A stretch of DNA of 35,397 bases, taken from contig JAFXZT010000023.1 of assembly GCA_017541145.1 (NCBI GenBank), positions 1 through 35,397 of the forward strand. The letters are read 5' to 3'. This document shows, piece after piece, positions 17,906 through 35,397 of this stretch. A program made the translations under genes and the position numbers. The first letter of the stretch is position 1. The number at the start of each line of letters is the position of its first letter. The notes under the pieces are model-generated. The model saw only the letters and a program-made list of their open reading frames with translations. It did not search any database and was not told the DNA's origin. The stretch is from Bacteroidales bacterium (lineage in GTDB: Bacteria > Bacteroidota > Bacteroidia > Bacteroidales > UBA3824).

Positions 17906-19795
17906 ATGAAGAAGATTACGTTACTTACAGCTTCTCTGCTATCAGGAATTCTACAACTGAATGCTCAGACAGATTCCTCTATAAATCAATTAATTGAAAA
18001 TGACTTGCTCGAAGTTACTCACAAAGATGTTGTTATTACCGGTACTCGAAACCAAGTTTCTGTAAGACTTTTACCGCTTACTGTTACTAAATACACTCAT
18101 GATGATTTGGAGCGAAACTACTCATTATCAATACTTCCGACAATTGCGGAACAAACTCCGGGTCTGTTTACCACCACCCGTGGAACTATCGGTTACGGCG
18201 TATCAACTAATGCTGCCGGCGGCATTAAAGTTCGCGGCGTTGGTTCGGGTGCTGAACTTTTGGTACTTATCGACGGTCAACCTCAATACGCCGGACTTAT
18301 GGGGCATCCGATTCCCGATGCGTATCAAACGTATATGGCTGAAAATGTAGAAATTATACGTGGTCCATCGTCACTTCTCTATGGTTCTAACGCAATGGGC
18401 GGCGTGGTAAATATTATTACAAGAAAGTCAAAAGAAGACGGCTCGCATACCGATGCTATTTTCTCCGGCGGAAGCTACGGAACGGTTCTGAGTCAAGTAG
18501 TTAACCGTACTAAAAAAAATAAATTCAGCAGCATTGCCGGATTGAATTACCAACGTACCGACGGACACAGATCGAACTCTGAATTTGAACAATATTCCGG
18601 TTTTCTGAAACTTGGATACAATGTCAACAAGAATTGGAAAATAAACGGCGATATCAATTTTACATTTTTTGATTTCATGAATCCCGGACCAGAATCCGAA
18701 CCGCTTTTCGATGCTGAAGGCAAAATCTCAAGAGGTCTTACAAGTATCTCGTTGACAAATGATTACGGATATACTTCCGGAAGTTTGAGAGTTTATTACG
18801 ATTGGGGACATCATGAAATAAACGACGGTCATACATGGAGCGCAGAACCTCGAAAATATTTGTACAAACATGATGATTTTATCGGCGGAATCAACTGGTA
18901 TCAAACAGCAAAACTTTTTGCAGGAAACAGAATTACAGTAGGTTTCGATTGGCAAAGTTTTGGCGGCGAAGCTTGGAACGATTTTTTTGCCGGTGACAAG
19001 AAATATTATGACAAAATAGAAAATCAAAACGAAATTGCCGGTTATGCGGATTTCCGTCAAGATTTGGCAGTTTGGTTGACAGCGGATTTGGGCGTAAGAA
19101 TCGACAATCATTCTCAATCGGGTACAGAGATTGTTCCTCAAGGCGGTTTGTCGTTCCATCTGAATCCTCAAAACGATATCAAACTGTTGGTTTCCAAAGG
19201 TTTCAGAAATCCTACGATTTCCGAGATGTATATGTTTGCTGCAAATCCCGACTTAAAACCGGAACGAATGATGAATTACGAATTGTCATACAAAACTACC
19301 TCGTTAAAAGGTTCGTTCGGTGCAAACATATATTATATAAAAGGTGATAATTTGATTTCACGCGGTCCGAATCCCAACGGTGCAGGATTTTTGCAACAAA
19401 ATCTCGGCGAATTTGAAAACTACGGTTTTGAACTGGAGAGCGAATACAAAGTTACGTTGTTTTGTACAATCAAAGCCAACTACTCGTATCTTTACATGGA
19501 TCAACCCGTTACATGCGCACCGGAAGGTAAATTTTATGCCGGAGGATTTTTTCATTACGACAAATTCTCGTCAAATATCGGAATCGAAAATATTTCGGGA
19601 CTGTATATCACAACGGGCGAAAATCCTGAAAAAGAAAATTATACTTTGGTAAATTTTGATTTCAGTTTTCAAGCTTTGAAATGGATGAAAATTTTTGTAA
19701 AAGCCGAAAACATCTTGAACGAAAAATATTCAACTTACGCAGATTTTCCAATGCCCGGAACTACTTTTATGGGCGGAATTGCATTGAATTTATAA
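17906..19795 (+). CDS. TonB-dependent outer-membrane receptor
   Basis: A 629-residue outer-membrane transporter. The signal peptide is residues 1-20 (LNA-Q). DVVITGTRNQ near 40-50 begins the plug domain. It continues with GGIKVRGVGSGAELLVLIDG and the plug signature MAENVEIIRGPSSLLYGSNAMGGVVNIIT at about 150-178. A beta-barrel follows, with the family's C-terminal strand ending in FMGGIALNL (terminal aromatic/hydrophobic pattern) and the LNEKYSTYADFPMPG segment. There is no N-terminal carboxypeptidase-like (SusC-type) extension. It therefore resembles the siderophore, haem or cobalamin group (CirA/BtuB) rather than SusC. Energy comes from TonB-ExbBD. No ABC transporter or periplasmic binding protein is adjacent, so the substrate remains open. 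Confidence 0.92.
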   Translation: MKKITLLTASLLSGILQLNAQTDSSINQLIENDLLEVTHKDVVITGTRNQVSVRLLPLTVTKYTHDDLERNYSLSILPTIAEQTPGLFTTTRGTIGYGVSTNAAGGIKVRGVGSGAELLVLIDGQPQYAGLMGHPIPDAYQTYMAENVEIIRGPSSLLYGSNAMGGVVNIITRKSKEDGSHTDAIFSGGSYGTVLSQVVNRTKKNKFSSIAGLNYQRTDGHRSNSEFEQYSGFLKLGYNVNKNWKINGDINFTFFDFMNPGPESEPLFDAEGKISRGLTSISLTNDYGYTSGSLRVYYDWGHHEINDGHTWSAEPRKYLYKHDDFIGGINWYQTAKLFAGNRITVGFDWQSFGGEAWNDFFAGDKKYYDKIENQNEIAGYADFRQDLAVWLTADLGVRIDNHSQSGTEIVPQGGLSFHLNPQNDIKLLVSKGFRNPTISEMYMFAANPDLKPERMMNYELSYKTTSLKGSFGANIYYIKGDNLISRGPNPNGAGFLQQNLGEFENYGFELESEYKVTLFCTIKANYSYLYMDQPVTCAPEGKFYAGGFFHYDKFSSNIGIENISGLYITTGENPEKENYTLVNFDFSFQALKWMKIFVKAENILNEKYSTYADFPMPGTTFMGGIALNL

Positions 19796-28918: not shown

Positions 28919-28967
28919 AAAAAAAATTCCGTTTCTCCCGTGCGGAGTCCGCACGGGAGAAACGGAA
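28919..28967 (-). terminator. Strong terminator of the dynamin operon
   Basis: A perfect 19-bp inverted repeat. The left arm 28927-28945 contains CCGTTTCTCCCGTGCGG, the loop is AGT, and the right arm is 28949-28967. On the minus strand it is followed by a run of 8 T (28926-28919). It begins 10 bases after the stop codon of the last operon gene. The stem is much longer and more GC-rich than its surroundings. Confidence 0.93.
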
Positions 28968-28976
28968 AGGAGAAAA

Positions 28977-30077
28977 CTACTTCAACAAATTCTTTTTTAA
29001 CTCTTTAAATAACAAGTTCTTCACATCTGACAATGTTTTTTCTGTTTTTTGCTTTGTTTTGGAGTCAAGATTTTCCAAATATTCCAAAGCACAAACATAA
29101 AGAGCACAATCAAATTCGTTGGTTTCTATTTTTCTAAGCGAATTATGTAAATCGCTAAACAATTTTTTTGTACTGTCTGGAAGGTCTTTTTGTGTTGCTG
29201 CTTTTGTAGATTTCGCACTTTCGTCGTAAACAAAAAAGATGCGTTTCAACAAGTTGATATTCGCAAACTTTCTCTGATACTGAGTAATCAAATCATAAAA
29301 TGTCAAAATCATAAAATCATCATTATGATTGAGAATCGCGAAATTTATTCTTTCAACATCGCAGACATTTTCTGAAAACTTCTTCCAAAAATCATTCTTT
29401 TGATTGTCCGCATCATTTTCCGACCCAAACAAAAAGTTGCCTACAAATTTAAGCAAATCATCAGAATCCGTTTTTTGAGTTTCAACATTTTGTTGAATAG
29501 TTTTCTTGTATTCAGCATACGGTGAATATTTCTCTGGTATCAAGAAAACATCATCCAATGACCTATACAATTCCACATCTATCACTTTCGGATGTTTGAT
29601 TTCTATTTTTTTAATCAATTTGTCGCCGTCAAGATAACGAAAATTATCATTTGGATTGTTCATAAACTCAGTTGCCCAATCATCTTTGACTGTCAGCGGC
29701 GGAACCTTCCTCTTTTGTGAAAAAAACAAACCGAGATTTATGTTTTTGTCCGCATTGTAATGGCTGTACAATGCCCGAAACCATTCCTGCTGTTCGTCGG
29801 TGTAACCACCGTCATTTCCGCCAAAAGTAATTTGAACCTCAGGCGTTTTAGATGATTTTATGCGGACAAGATAATGTACATCGTCATTTATCAAAATCGG
29901 AAAATTAAAACCAAAAAGTTCGGTTAAAAGTTCCTGCTTTTTTATGCCGAATATTATGCACCTATTATCTTTGCTGCAACGGTTGAAAAACGTTTTGCAA
30001 TACTGCTCAAAACCACCGCCTATCAATACGGATTCATTTGACAAAGCGGTTAAAATGTCTTTCTTCAATGCTTCCAT
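28977..30077 (-). CDS. Unknown protein, last gene of the dynamin operon
   Basis: A 366-residue soluble protein: no signal peptide or membrane segment is seen. I recognise no domain. The N-terminal half has mixed alpha/beta character (CIIFGIKKQELLTELFGFNFPILINDD; VRIKSSKTPEVQITFGGNDGGYTDEQQEWFRALY). The C-terminal third is helical and charged (KTKQKTEKTLSDVKNLLFKELKKNLLK). It starts 5 bases after the stop of the dynamin-like GTPase gene, so translational coupling is likely and a function tied to the GTPase is reasonable. It could be an effector, sensor or adaptor of the system; the sequence alone does not decide. Confidence 0.8.
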   Translation of the reverse strand: MEALKKDILTALSNESVLIGGGFEQYCKTFFNRCSKDNRCIIFGIKKQELLTELFGFNFPILINDDVHYLVRIKSSKTPEVQITFGGNDGGYTDEQQEWFRALYSHYNADKNINLGLFFSQKRKVPPLTVKDDWATEFMNNPNDNFRYLDGDKLIKKIEIKHPKVIDVELYRSLDDVFLIPEKYSPYAEYKKTIQQNVETQKTDSDDLLKFVGNFLFGSENDADNQKNDFWKKFSENVCDVERINFAILNHNDDFMILTFYDLITQYQRKFANINLLKRIFFVYDESAKSTKAATQKDLPDSTKKLFSDLHNSLRKIETNEFDCALYVCALEYLENLDSKTKQKTEKTLSDVKNLLFKELKKNLLK

Positions 30078-30082
30078 AATTT

Positions 30083-31843
30083 TCAGATTTTATATTTTAC
30101 TGTTTCAATAACTTCAAGGAGTTCGTCAATTTTTTTAGACAATTCATCCTTTTTATGTTTCAAGGATTTTATATCATCATTAATAGAGGACATATTGATA
30201 TACTCCTTGAATCCTTTTTGAATAGCAATATCTGCATCTTCAATTTTCTTAAAAATGTCATTCTCGAATTTTATCAAGGCTTTATTCAAAGCGTTTTCCA
30301 TGGCTTCTTTGGCTTTAATTTTTTCATTTTTGGTTTTACCAAAAATAGAATTCCAAAAGTTGACAAACCTATTTTTTGCCTTCTGAATTTTTGCCGCAGT
30401 TTTAACACTTTGACTGTCAAAAGATATTTGTTCCAACAAGTCATTAGAATTATTTAAAACCTCTTTTAAACTCTGCTTAAACTCTTTTTTTTGATTTCCT
30501 GAAACATTCAAATTTAAAATGTATTCTTCTGCAACTTCACGCAATTCTGTATTGTAATCATTAAATATTTCTGATACATTATTCCTAAGTACAGAACAAT
30601 CTTTTGCAATTCTGTCGCAAACAGAATCACATTCATCTATACTTTTAATGGAATTAATATCAAGACCTTGTTCGCGTTTGAAAGACTTAATCTCCTTTTC
30701 AATGTCCGAATTGCGTTTTTTCTTCTTATTGCGAATTTTAGAAGTATTAAAAATTGAACAAATGTCAATTTTGTTGTCTTCGTCTTTGCCAATAGAATAC
30801 ATAACAAGATTTTCCAATCTTTTAGGTAATTCCAACGATTTTTGTTTCAAAACGTCAAGTTCTTTTTTCAACTCAGCCGCCTTGCGTTTTTTTACAATCG
30901 GCGTTTCTTGATTTGATTTTTGTATTGCAATTTTTTGCACGGTGATTTTTTGCAAAATTCTTTCGCGAACTTTGTCAACCAAAGCATTATCCTTATTGCT
31001 TACAACAATAATATCATCAGTATCGCCAATATTAGGAAAATGTTTGGCAACTTCACTTTTTGCTTTCTCTATAATTTTAGTCATATCACCTTTGCAACTT
31101 GCATAAGTGTTGTGTCCCTCAGCCAAATCATAAAAAGTCAGAACAACTATTTTGGGACTGCTCACTTTTAATAAGAACTTATTTACAACGGCAGCGGATT
31201 CTTCTATTTCGGTAATTTTAATTGCAACAACCACCAAATCAACTTTTTCAACATACTCTCTCGCCATTGCAGAATCGTCAAAATAAGGACCGCCAAGACC
31301 GGGCATGTCAATCAGTTGAATATTGTTCTGAAAAAAGTTTTTCGCAAGAGTCCGTTTATCGCCTACCGGAATTTTTGCCTCTAAAAAAGCAACTCCCGAA
31401 TTGTCCTCATTCTTACTCTGAGCAGTTTTTTGAAAATCTGCATATTCCGCAAACTGTTCACAATCATGTTCGCCGTTGAAATATTTGTATGCCGTAGGCG
31501 ATGAAATACTATCATCGAAAGCCACTCTGATAACTTTTGAAGTTACGACAGATTCGCCTTCGGGCAGTTTTTTATCTTCGTCCAAAAGAAAAAGACTATT
31601 CACCAATGCCGATTTGCCGTGCGAATAACGACCGAGCATACCAACGTAAACGGGCGACTTCAAAAGTCGGGAACAGTTGTCCAACTGTTCTAAAAGCGGT
31701 CTGGCGCAGTTGTAGTTGATTTCTTTCAAATCAGACTTCAATTTCGGCTCAAAACTGCTTATTACGTCATCGTCAAAAATCTTTTCGATTTCCGTCTTGA
31801 CAGTATCAATCTTTTTTTCGAGTTCTTTTGTTTGTTCTTCCAT
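30083..31843 (-). CDS. Dynamin-like GTPase, intact P-loop
   Basis: A 586-residue large GTPase of the dynamin superfamily. Residues 1-60 are an N-terminal helical segment. The G1 P-loop is GMLGRYSHGKSALVNSLF (GxxxxGKS at 71-78), with a switch I threonine near T101. The G3 motif is IQLIDMPGLGG (Asp179, Pro181, Gly182). The G4 region is VVLTFYDL, where TFYD replaces the usual TKxD, so base recognition may be relaxed. From about 310 onward it is nearly all coiled-coil or helical (stalk), ending in LKHKKDELSKKIDELLEVIE. No TM segment is evident, so membrane contact would be by lipid binding or through the TM partner encoded next to it. 12 bases separate it from the upstream pseudo-GTPase gene and 5 from the downstream gene. 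Confidence 0.86.
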   Translation of the reverse strand: MEEQTKELEKKIDTVKTEIEKIFDDDVISSFEPKLKSDLKEINYNCARPLLEQLDNCSRLLKSPVYVGMLGRYSHGKSALVNSLFLLDEDKKLPEGESVVTSKVIRVAFDDSISSPTAYKYFNGEHDCEQFAEYADFQKTAQSKNEDNSGVAFLEAKIPVGDKRTLAKNFFQNNIQLIDMPGLGGPYFDDSAMAREYVEKVDLVVVAIKITEIEESAAVVNKFLLKVSSPKIVVLTFYDLAEGHNTYASCKGDMTKIIEKAKSEVAKHFPNIGDTDDIIVVSNKDNALVDKVRERILQKITVQKIAIQKSNQETPIVKKRKAAELKKELDVLKQKSLELPKRLENLVMYSIGKDEDNKIDICSIFNTSKIRNKKKKRNSDIEKEIKSFKREQGLDINSIKSIDECDSVCDRIAKDCSVLRNNVSEIFNDYNTELREVAEEYILNLNVSGNQKKEFKQSLKEVLNNSNDLLEQISFDSQSVKTAAKIQKAKNRFVNFWNSIFGKTKNEKIKAKEAMENALNKALIKFENDIFKKIEDADIAIQKGFKEYINMSSINDDIKSLKHKKDELSKKIDELLEVIETVKYKI

Positions 31844-31855
31844 ATTATTAAGAGT

Positions 31856-33535
31856 TTACAGGTTATCTAATAAATTAATAGTCAAATCCAATAGGTTTTC
31901 CATTTGTTTTTCCTTCTGCCTAGTTCCCGAGTTGAAACTACGTTCAACTTCCTGAATTTCAGCAATTATCTTCTTATTGACTTTATCAATATTTTCTTCG
32001 GTTTTACTCCGTGGAAAACTTTTTTTCAAAGCATTTAATTGGTTAATAGTTTGCGTTTTATAATTGTTAAAAGCAATTTTTCTATTTTTTCTCGTAGTCC
32101 ATACAATTACCAATAATATCAGCACAGACAAAATAACTATCAAAAACATAACCGCCTTTGTAACCGAAGCCTGCATATTTTCATCAAGAATATACGAAAA
32201 AGGCCATGTCTGCGCTTGTCCTAAAAACCATGTCAAGGCGAAAATAACCGCTACACCTATAACGACAGCAATTAAAACACTCGGATTTGAAACAATGCTT
32301 ATTATATTTTTAATAGCAAGTTTTATGTAATGCCCTGTTTTGCCGACAAAATTTCCTAAACTACTAATATTTAACGGTTTATAAATGTTTTCAAAATCAA
32401 TATCCAACGAATTTATAAATGCGCTTTCAGTTGCGGTTTTCAATTGTTCCCGCATTTCGCTTTGAACAGAACTATGTCCGATTTGCTTTTCAATCAAATC
32501 TCTAAATTTGTCTTTGTAATCAGCGTAAAAACTTTCTGCGTTTTCAATATGATGTTCAAAACTGTTTTTCTTTTTCAGTTCGTTTCTCATTGAATCAATT
32601 TGTCCGATGTTTTCAGCACGGTTTACTTGAAAAATAGAATTGTCAATTTCAGCAATATATTTGCCGTATTGATTTTCAAGATTTGTAATCAAATGCTTTT
32701 TTAGGTTTTGAGACTCAGAACTTTTGGCAATTTTATCAATTTGAAAACCGCAATCATTTTTTTGCTCTTTTTCAATTTGATTTTTCAAATCCGACAGCAA
32801 AGGTTTCAACACTTTGCTGTGTTCGTTTATCAAATTATTGCGATGTTCTTCGATTTTAATTTTATCATTGCCGAGAGCGTTTTTGTCAGGATTTACAAAA
32901 TGTCTGATAAGTCGCACAATCTTTGCGACTTCATTTTGCGAATCTTCTTTGGTTTTAATAAAAAACAAATCTTCAAATTTTTGATATTTTTCGCATAAAT
33001 CGGAAACATTGTCAAATCCGTCTGTGTTAGTGAAAGCGATAATTATTGGAATGTTAATATTTTTATTTTCAACGATATAGTTCAAAAGTCGGGAATGAAT
33101 AGCATATTCTTCCGCCTTGATAACGATGATGGCAAGGTCAATATTTTCCAATGGCTCAAAACCTTTGTCACCAGAGAACACCGTTATTGAAATGTTTTTC
33201 TGACAGAAAAGTTCTGTTAAATCGTTTTCTGTATAAAAATTATTTTCTGAAAACGAAATGCAGACATCTTTTTCGTTATCATTTTCAGAAATTTTCCAAT
33301 CGCCGTTCAGTGAAAATATTTCATTAACCAACTCGGATTTTTCAGAATTGGAATTTCCTATAACTCCGACATTTAAAGGTTGCTTGATTAAATTCTTGAA
33401 TCTTTCAAGTTCGGTTTTAAGTACACGCAAACGGTTTCCTAACTCGCTATTTTCAAGCGGGCTTTGATTGAGAAACTTGTTGATGCAGTCAACTTGTTTG
33501 CTAAGATTATATATATGATTGTAAGTGTCCGGCAT
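31856..33535 (-). CDS. Dynamin-like pseudo-GTPase with two membrane segments
   Basis: A 559-residue protein with the same overall plan as its neighbour: N-terminal helix, G-like domain, helical stalk. The nucleotide motifs are damaged. The P-loop equivalent is GVIGNSNSEKSELVNEIF (60-67), with Glu65 in place of the glycine before the lysine. The G3 strand ITVFSGDKGFEPL lacks DxPG. The G4 equivalent AFTNTDGF has no lysine. Two hydrophobic segments at about 418-440 and 457-480 form a membrane hairpin within the stalk, as in bacterial dynamin-like proteins with a paddle or membrane insertion. It probably anchors the active GTPase at the inner membrane as a non-hydrolysing heteromer partner. It starts 14 bases after the preceding gene. 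Confidence 0.8.
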   Translation of the reverse strand: MPDTYNHIYNLSKQVDCINKFLNQSPLENSELGNRLRVLKTELERFKNLIKQPLNVGVIGNSNSEKSELVNEIFSLNGDWKISENDNEKDVCISFSENNFYTENDLTELFCQKNISITVFSGDKGFEPLENIDLAIIVIKAEEYAIHSRLLNYIVENKNINIPIIIAFTNTDGFDNVSDLCEKYQKFEDLFFIKTKEDSQNEVAKIVRLIRHFVNPDKNALGNDKIKIEEHRNNLINEHSKVLKPLLSDLKNQIEKEQKNDCGFQIDKIAKSSESQNLKKHLITNLENQYGKYIAEIDNSIFQVNRAENIGQIDSMRNELKKKNSFEHHIENAESFYADYKDKFRDLIEKQIGHSSVQSEMREQLKTATESAFINSLDIDFENIYKPLNISSLGNFVGKTGHYIKLAIKNIISIVSNPSVLIAVVIGVAVIFALTWFLGQAQTWPFSYILDENMQASVTKAVMFLIVILSVLILLVIVWTTRKNRKIAFNNYKTQTINQLNALKKSFPRSKTEENIDKVNKKIIAEIQEVERSFNSGTRQKEKQMENLLDLTINLLDNL

Positions 33536-33549
33536 TATGTTAATTTGAG

Positions 33550-34683
33550 TTAATCTAAGTTAGTAATTAAATTGTAATTAACTTTTATAGTATCAAAATC
33601 TTTTTCCTTCAACAATTCATTCACTATTTTAGCTATTTTTAAGTTGTCTTTTTCGTAATCAGATCCTTCAAAATTCACAAAAACAGTCTTATTAAATACC
33701 TTCACAAATTTTGTATCAATTTGAAATTTTTCAGAAATTAATTCAGATTGTTCTGTACTAATATTAAGAAATTTATCATAATACCCATTGATTACACCTC
33801 TTTCAAAATGTAACCAATTTTGAATATCATTAGATGGACTATCATTGTAATGACTAATGATTTGTTTCTTCTGCTTTTCTGACTTTGTATAGAATTTTAC
33901 TTGATTATCATTAACCTCAAAGTAAATACCCATTTTTCGAATAAATTTATCAGACTTAATTCTATTAAACAAAATTTCATCTGAATAATCTCGTAATGAT
34001 GAACTTTTAATTTTATCTTTAACAGTTTTAAAAAAAATAAAAATTATCATAAAGGAAATTATACATGTAACAAATATATTTAAACAACAAATATTGAAAT
34101 AAATTAAAATACCAAAAACAAATGCACAAATCCAAAAAATAACTAATAGCCAACCTATCAAAATTACAATTTTTGAAGGAGAAAAGCCTCGCACCGAAAA
34201 TATTTTTTCAAAAAATGTTTTATTATTAAAATCTTTATCAGTCTTTAATGACCAATAATTATGAATCAAGGATTCATGTTCAAAAGAAAAAACATTGCGT
34301 AAACTTTCCATATTCCAAATAGCATTTTCATAAACTTCATACCATGCTTTTGATCCCTTTGCCATCCACAACCATAGTAATGATAGAGTACAAGCAATGA
34401 TACAAATAAAAGAACTAAGAATCGGAAACAAATTCTTACTTTCATCACAAAATTTGCCTTCCAAAAATTTACTTATCAGGAATCCGTATGCAGTGAAACA
34501 TACCATAAGGAATGTCCATACAAATATGGAATTTTCCCAAAAGCGTTTCAAATGATAATCTTTTCCTTCATAGTAATGCTTGTACAATTCTTTAAGGTTT
34601 TCAATCTTTAATTTTTTTGCTTTTGCTTTATCATTCATTTCTTGTCCACAAGACGGACATTTTTCCTTGGCTTTTTGTTCCAT
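33550..34683 (-). CDS. Four-TM membrane protein with N-terminal CxxC knuckle, first gene of the dynamin operon
   Basis: A 377-residue protein. The N-terminus has a single CPSC pair (residues 9-12, KEKCPSCGQEM), half of a zinc ribbon. Hydrophobic segments lie at about 51-71, 85-108, 171-197 and 199-219. Between segments 2 and 3 is the hydrophilic part SKAWYEVYENAIWNMESLRNVF, and a cytosolic C-terminal domain of about 155 residues follows from 222. The helix-rich membrane part, with a Trp/Glu/Arg-rich connector, resembles the RipA-type or SLATT-type small membrane modules of Bacteroidetes in layout. I cannot confirm membership. It is the first gene of the four-gene operon (14-base gap to the pseudo-GTPase). 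Function unknown. Confidence 0.78.
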   Translation of the reverse strand: MEQKAKEKCPSCGQEMNDKAKAKKLKIENLKELYKHYYEGKDYHLKRFWENSIFVWTFLMVCFTAYGFLISKFLEGKFCDESKNLFPILSSFICIIACTLSLLWLWMAKGSKAWYEVYENAIWNMESLRNVFSFEHESLIHNYWSLKTDKDFNNKTFFEKIFSVRGFSPSKIVILIGWLLVIFWICAFVFGILIYFNICCLNIFVTCIISFMIIFIFFKTVKDKIKSSSLRDYSDEILFNRIKSDKFIRKMGIYFEVNDNQVKFYTKSEKQKKQIISHYNDSPSNDIQNWLHFERGVINGYYDKFLNISTEQSELISEKFQIDTKFVKVFNKTVFVNFEGSDYEKDNLKIAKIVNELLKEKDFDTIKVNYNLITNLD

Positions 34684-35128
34684 TTTCTGTATTTTTTAAG
34701 TTAACGTTTTCTTATCCAAAGTAAAAAAGGCGTAGAACTATTACGATGACTTATCTAACGTGAAGGCTCCAGACTCCCAGCAAATACATAAGCGCAAAAT
34801 AGTGAAGATTTCAGAAAGCCAAATAAGTATTCTGAAATATACCTTTAAATTTTTTGCCCTTTTTATATTTTATAAGCAATAAAAATTTTTAGTAGTTATT
34901 CACACCGCAAATCTAAGAAAAGAATTCAAAAAAAAAATTATTCGTTCAAAATTTATTATGAAACTTTATTTTTTATTAAAAACACTCAAAAAATGACTTT
35001 TAGCGGAGCTCCAAACAATAAAAAAAGGGAAATTTCAAAAACCAATTCAAAAAGAAATGCCAAATATGAACATAGAAAATATTGGGACTTCCGATGTAAT
35101 ATGTAAAAGGGATTGTTAAAAAATCGAA

Positions 35129-35300: not shown

Positions 35301-35306
35301 GTAAAA

Positions 35307-35397
<91 letters not shown>

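Follow-up and report, generated by a model that had tools for sequence, protein, structure and literature searches.

A mobile dynamin-pair locus with an exchangeable first gene in Bacteroidales as a candidate membrane-associated immune module

Why does the genome of a rumen Bacteroidales bacterium carry, in one tight operon, a dynamin-like GTPase, a seemingly degenerate GTPase-like protein, a membrane protein and a protein of no known family, and are these four genes a single unit? They lie on contig JAFXZT010000023.1 (C48), which was analysed over its whole 35,397 bases, hereafter the window, and belongs to a genome of 4.63 Mb in 192 contigs. Comparison with a relative suggests that the conserved unit is three genes, g2-g3-g4, preceded by an exchangeable first gene, g1 in the window. 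We lean towards the view that the locus is a mobile, membrane-associated immune module that would work like the Eleos system, with interchangeable effectors. Labels with G, L and C denote genomes, loci and contigs, respectively. The module and its surroundings comprise the following features (aa, amino acids):

g1, 33550-34683, minus strand: 377 aa; CxxC N-terminally, 8xMP transmembrane (TM) domain at residues 31-191, C-terminus of no known family
g2, 31856-33535, minus strand: 559 aa; degenerate GTPase-like protein with a TM hairpin
g3, 30083-31843, minus strand: 586 aa; dynamin-like GTPase
g4, 28977-30077, minus strand: 366 aa; no family match; retained with g2-g3 in both intact copies
Exchanged block in g3, 30093-30783, minus strand: approximately residues 354-584; divergent allele relative to G016
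Intrinsic terminator, 28927-28967, minus strand: perfect inverted repeat with 20-base arms, then eight T
Leader element, 34724-34813, minus strand: precedes g1; forms a terminator-like hairpin in relatives, whereas the window copy has a decayed 5' arm
5S rRNA, 35306-35397, minus strand: RF00001, 61.4 bits; truncated by the contig end; right neighbour, outside the module

An earlier sequence-only reading of this DNA had described four minus-strand genes, 5-14 bp apart and with one strong terminator, as a compact four-gene module. The layout is confirmed by the open reading frames (ORFs), with gaps of 14, 12 and 5 bp for g1/g2, g2/g3 and g3/g4, and by the perfect 20-base-arm repeat. The four-gene module does not hold in that form after comparison with G016, a goat abomasum Bacteroidales metagenome-assembled genome (RGIG1595), whose contig JAFPYR010000132.1 is the one relative among the matches listed in the g3 scan; the scan used two short g3 peptide patterns and leaves room for other carriers. 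The leaders are 87% identical over 116 aligned bases, ending just 5' of the first start codon, and the g2-g3-g4 stretches are 92.7% identical over 4,526 aligned bases (g2, 93%; g4, 95%). Between the leader and g2, the window holds g1, while G016 holds a gene for a 192-aa AHH-family protein (PF14412, E-value 2.7e-9, 37.4 bits versus the cut-off of 22.3), which has no hydrophobic segment in a hydropathy scan. AHH is a nuclease family known from polymorphic toxins. Homology restarts about 55 bases into g2 and stops at the g4 stop codon. The sequence-only reading had named as evidence against itself the occurrence of the dynamin genes elsewhere without the membrane-protein and unknown genes; in G016 they do occur without g1, but with g4. 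Downstream (3') of g4, G016 carries an FRG-domain gene (PADLOC PDC-S15, 4.4e-67). The FRG domain, which belongs to the ART superfamily, is described as a potential effector against viruses (PMC9503650).

The exchange of the first gene bears on whether the module repairs membranes in the manner of Bacillus DynA, with g3 and g2 patching damage caused by phage lysis, antibiotics or bile and g1 acting as a structural partner rather than a killer. A dynamin pair encoded with membrane proteins would suit this role, and DynA is reported to provide phage resistance at the population level and to delay host lysis (PMC8844932). However, an AHH-family protein is hardly a substitute for a structural membrane partner, the module is rare rather than a core trait, and 8xMP proteins also occur near immune genes without dynamins (see below). 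We regard membrane repair as unlikely.

The second difference from G016 lies within g3. Calculated per 100 bases, identity is 92-100% over the shared stretch, with one 87% step in g4, drops to 61-80% across approximately 30783-30093 and is back to 100% at the g3/g4 junction. The synonymous substitution rate (dS) amounts to 0.08 in g2 (codon 19 onwards), 0.035 in g3 codons 1-350 and 0.18 in g4, versus ∼2.4 from g3 codon 351 to the end, a saturated and unreliable number, with a ratio of nonsynonymous to synonymous rates (dN/dS, or omega) of 0.11 in that part. This fits a recombination event that put a divergent allele in place of the C-terminal 40% of g3, with purifying selection acting on both alleles. 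The GTPase half is constant between the genomes; exchanged is the C-terminal half, the portion of dynamins that makes up the neck, the trunk and the membrane tip. From this one genome pair, we read the exchanged part as a specificity or partner region. Relative to G016, dN/dS is 0.36 for whole g2 and 0.24 from codon 19 on, 0.28 for whole g3 and 0.36 for its codons 1-350, and 0.11 for g4. As these values all fall between 0.11 and 0.36, g2, g3, and g4 look like genuine genes.

The proteins themselves were also characterized. The product of g1 belongs to the Pfam family 8xMP (PF24838, E-value 3.9e-21, 75.7 bits versus the curated cut-off of 30), an assignment missing from the sequence-only reading, which had noted a CxxC motif and four TM segments. 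The motif is present, as a single CPSC at the N-terminus, and also occurs in the g1 homologues of G012 and G017:C180; three segments (52-70, 85-103, 164-192) were found by the hydropathy scan and the fourth, at ∼195-216, was judged by eye. Going by the family name 8xMP alone, g1 is perhaps an oligomeric pore. For g3, the reading of an intact P-loop and DxPG is borne out by GRYSHGKS at 71 (G1) and DMPG at 179 (G3), and the protein matches Dynamin_N (E-value 4.7e-11, 43.4 bits versus the cut-off of 27). The G4 position is TFYD at 236, which fails the canonical consensus N/TKxD.

In g2, the P-loop position reads GNSNSEKS, with Gly replaced by Glu, DxPG is absent, and two hydrophobic segments (∼420-438 and ∼461-479) form a TM hairpin; a Pfam search at E-values up to 1 yielded no Dynamin_N match. 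The broken motifs and the hairpin thus stand as previously noted. The shared plan of g2 and g3 that had been claimed is backed only around the P-loop, because the alignment of the two profiles spans just 53 columns there (E-value 1.2e-4, probability 55), and g2 is most aptly described as a degenerate GTPase-like partner. As had been noted, g4 is unrecognised: searches of Pfam, NCBIfam, PADLOC, PHROGs, and the PDB sequences were all negative at the thresholds applied, and its AlphaFold model from two sequences is unusable (mean predicted local distance difference test score, 35.7). Among 673 ORFs of 74 loci, g2 and g4 match only their G016 copies.

All genome counts include the window's own genome. 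Gene g2 is present in 2 of 18 genus genomes; g4 is found in 3 of 59 relatives, where the G006 copy is just a remnant, and in a single one of 296 phylum genomes, the window's own; full-length g3 occurs in 2 of 344 order genomes, nine more matching part of its N-terminal region only (24-31%). The module is a rare, patchy trait. To its left in the window stand a LuxR-type regulator gene (Pfam GerE) and a gene for a MATE transporter (Pfam MatE). Elsewhere in the genus, 13 places match the LuxR regulator, and MATE adjoins in all six that were examined. At the five with visible sequence upstream of LuxR, the dynamin module is absent, and four of them have there a homologue of the TonB-dependent receptor encoded at 17906-19795 of the window. 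The sixth, in G016, begins at a contig end, the G016 module being on a separate contig, downstream of a gene for a secreted-looking 576-aa protein. In G006, the remnant of g4 (L013 1266-1402; 137 bases, 100% identical to the window, 45 residues) is flanked by a phage tail-collar gene (PHROG tail families) on one side and a gene with a transposase domain (DUF772) on the other. The LuxR-MATE sites without the module, the other site in G016 and the G006 remnant together indicate that the unit has moved; the module is mobile and occupies different sites in its two carriers. No close relatives were found in viral contigs (g2, g3, and g4 searched), on plasmids (g1 and g3), or in phages (g1 and g3).

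The 576-aa protein, which has no Pfam match, is encoded at L012 3169-4899, L064 3160-4887, L065 1511-3244, and L070 2303-4033; in several genomes its gene precedes a hairpin and a GTPase-type module and is likely a marker of a variable hotspot.

The leader is the other element shared with G016. Five of the 18 genus genomes, counting the window's own, have matches to its DNA, always before a GTPase, 8xMP, or AHH operon. Six of seven leaders fold as a long terminator-like hairpin (z-scores from -2.8 to -5.3), while the window copy, having lost its 5' arm, folds no better than shuffles (z-score +1.96). A covariance model built from six leaders detected nine genus places above 82 bits, three of them outside the model-building set, whereas the window leader scores only 38.4 bits. 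At the eight strong places where the first gene is visible, this gene invariably encodes an 8xMP, AHH, or dynamin-type GTPase protein. Copies of this genus-wide element, a long hairpin with a T tail that stands before many variable operons, lie at:

L012, 5266-5355
L063, 4167-4257
L064, 2866-2955
L065, 1209-1298
L067, 873-967
L070, 4233-4328
L071, 6768-6860
L073, 1742-1834
L131, 3190-3283

Weaker matches are found in most genus genomes, with some match in 16 of 18. Those that were examined mostly precede unrelated operons, such as secreted-repeat and radical-SAM-like ones (judged by eye), and we reject an exclusive tie of the hairpin to dynamin modules. A known RNA family was likewise rejected, as there was no Rfam match at E-values up to 0.01 at five loci. 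Pairing reaches 98.2% versus 31.6-50.0% in slid controls. There is little covariation: both sides change in 2 of 28 pairs, which was equalled by 130 of 500 shuffles, while the covariation score and paired cells were reached by 23 of 500. The hairpin may work at the RNA level, at the DNA level, or as a terminator, with an attenuator, a terminator, and a recombination point as candidate roles.

The decayed leader also raises the possibility that the locus is a relic or neutral cargo, functionless in this genome, whose leader without the 5' arm may regulate no more. The poor folding of the window copy would agree with decay, as would the 45 residues that G006 retains of g4. Against this, the window has four open frames and a strong terminator in place, and g2-g4 show the low dN/dS given above, which makes a relic improbable.

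To place g1 among related loci, we considered 8xMP genes across the genus and the order. A protein search with g1 identified 15 loci with 8xMP, spread over 9 of the 18 genus genomes (16 rows, two from one gene), and a Pfam search adds at least one more, G009:C63, a 3.3-kb contig with no dynamin. A dynamin-type GTPase lies within two genes of 8xMP at seven of the 15 loci (the window, G008, G012, two in G017, G010, and G002); at the six other than the window, the partner GTPases score above the Dynamin_N cut-off. At the remaining eight loci, no dynamin-type GTPase was seen on the stretch examined. The statement of the sequence-only reading that the partner genes fit no known dynamin operon keeps its force for g2-g3-g4 but not for 8xMP with dynamin GTPases, which recurs at these six loci.

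Some of these loci are related to Eleos, which consists of LeoA and LeoBC. In G008, the first gene is 8xMP behind a homologous leader, and the GTPase pair is Eleos-like (LeoA, 2.1e-17; LeoBC, 4.8e-7 over part of the profile); after the pair come a 134-aa gene and then a gene homologous to the FRG gene of G016 (89% identical). G012 has LeoA at 3.3e-17 and LeoBC at a marginal 0.0076, and one of the G017 pairs has 2.7e-7 and 5.8e-7, respectively. Overall, the LeoA-like proteins of G008, G012, G009, and G017 match the LeoA profile at 2.7e-7 to 2.1e-17. In the order, LeoA-like proteins at E-values up to 1e-20 occur in 1 of 393 sampled genomes, a member of the genus. Another arrangement is found at L071 6892-13716 (8xMP accompanied by a dynamin-like GTPase of 854 aa, a protein of 871 aa that lacks any Pfam match, and one of 228 aa with weak JetC-like matches), which seems to be another unnamed dynamin module. 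The 871-aa protein of the G002 module has no similarity to g4. In the window's own genome, two clusters (L014 on C8 and L015 on C120) each contain at least three dynamin-like genes, with a weak hairpin copy upstream of the C120 cluster (L015 9669-9749, 31.7 bits).

In the order, 8xMP was found above the cut-off at 22 places in 20 of 393 genomes; four of these had already been covered, and the other 18, 17 of them outside the genus, were examined. None of the 18 has a dynamin beside 8xMP by BLAST or P-loop motif, and linkage of 8xMP to dynamins as a general rule is rejected. Recognised immune genes lie no more than four genes from 8xMP at a minimum of five of the 18, none of these five being in the genus; only immune-looking neighbours were scanned, and five is a lower bound rather than a rate:

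L109: two ThsB TIR genes
L110: OLD protein and E1-like ThiF protein
L112: type I restriction and FRG
L119: ThsB TIR
L125: TIR-NB-ARC

The product of g1 resembles the 8xMP proteins near TIR, OLD, and restriction genes in holding the same domain, above the family cut-off, but differs in its N-terminal CxxC, ∼185 extra residues, and its place before a dynamin pair. At L110 (3919-7925), 8xMP is flanked by an OLD-type ATPase and by a weakly polymerase-beta-like protein and the ThiF E1-like protein, which may be yet another immune combination.

A different association of 8xMP is seen at L073 (C126, 1868-4958) in the window's own genome, where a strong hairpin leader copy (93.0 bits) precedes a second 8xMP gene, a 348-aa lipoprotein-like gene, and a gene for an AHH protein that is also lipoprotein-like. 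Such an operon would be compatible with loci that encode a vesicle or export module like E. coli LeoABC, or that serve contact competition, with the lipoproteins and AHH proteins used for attack and not for defence. Both leoA and leoB are reported to influence vesicle release (PMC4159319), and a secreted-looking 576-aa protein is encoded upstream of the G016 module and related loci. Yet the AHH protein of G016 lacks a hydrophobic segment, no product of the four window genes has the look of a secreted protein, and the linkage to FRG and LeoA/LeoBC favours immunity. We consider a role in export or competition quite unlikely.

Returning to the immune module, it might operate as follows. We infer that g3, a GTP-binding dynamin motor, and g2, a membrane-anchored pseudo-GTPase, would form a heteromer at the inner membrane. 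GTP-dependent assembly would be driven by a cue from the membrane or a phage, presumably read via the C-terminal half of g3, and assembly would then turn on a separately encoded effector, the multi-pass 8xMP protein g1 in the window or the AHH-family putative nuclease in G016. The product of g4 would be an accessory required by the g2-g3 pair. The genomic context agrees with a possible anti-phage role: an Eleos-like locus shares the leader and the FRG gene, 8xMP lies near TIR, OLD, and restriction genes, and the distribution is patchy and mobile. A bolder and rather doubtful proposal is that the dynamin/pseudo-dynamin pair serves as an exchangeable sensor, with a C-terminal half swapped like a specificity domain, that drives interchangeable 8xMP pore, AHH nuclease, or FRG effectors behind a common hairpin leader; this would be a new class of immunity, and these rumen Bacteroidales would possess a combinatorial repertoire of dynamin-based immunity of which the module is one branch.

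Several observations weigh against an Eleos-like immune module. The window site is no defence island, having an rRNA gene on one side and LuxR-MATE on the other, and the first-gene swap and the g3 exchange each come from one genome pair. No dynamin was seen by 8xMP at the 18 places examined from the order search, as judged by BLAST and the P-loop motif rather than by a dynamin profile and with some contigs short. In the genus, 8xMP also occurs with lipoprotein-like genes (by eye), with dynamins beside it in L067 and L070 and not in L072 and L073, and the AHH proteins of L073 and L077 have an N-terminal hydrophobic segment, which would suit a competition module. Neither g1 nor its family profile has a match among solved structures, and neither g1 nor g4 has a usable predicted structure. 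Finally, PADLOC detects no Eleos profile in g2 or g3 of the window or G016, and generic dynamins of the order slightly outscore the LeoA-like ones against the g3 GTPase domain (BLAST).

No description of the arrangement appeared among the open-licence papers listed in searches for dynamin defence or for 8xMP by name, the latter giving no relevant paper. The same dynamin pair combined with either a membrane protein or a nuclease-family protein is a natural swap that would split sensing from killing. It bears on the question of how dynamin-type GTPases protect bacteria, and it ties the 8xMP family to several immune contexts.

Among known systems, Eleos is the nearest in plan: both have two dynamin-like proteins in tandem, and the g3 GTPase domain aligns with a profile of LeoA-like proteins over 202 columns (probability 96.7, E-value 4.6e-10). 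In addition, the Eleos-like G008 locus shares with the window/G016 type an 8xMP first gene, the leader, and a downstream FRG gene. In contrast to Eleos, the second protein of the window, g2, is a pseudo-GTPase with a TM hairpin, and there is an additional conserved gene, g4. The LeoA profile has no match in g3 at E-values up to 10, or in its G016 copy up to 0.01; the LeoBC profile has none in g2 or g3 up to 1, or in their G016 copies up to 0.01; and g2 aligns with a LeoBC-like profile at a probability of 0.2. In a 28-row tree of GTPase domains, whose deep forks are poorly resolved, g3 is on its own long branch. With no LeoA profile match, this branch, and the BLAST scores, the identification of g3 as LeoA is not supported. 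Both defining profiles being absent, the best reading is that the module is Eleos-like in working and is not classed as Eleos. The paired dynamin-like units on membranes also recall Bacillus DynA and Campylobacter DLP1-DLP2, and dynamin pairs are reported to form heterotypic complexes (PMC6104087). Unlike those proteins, the window's pair includes a member, g2, that has lost G1 and G3, and it is encoded in an operon with an exchangeable first gene.

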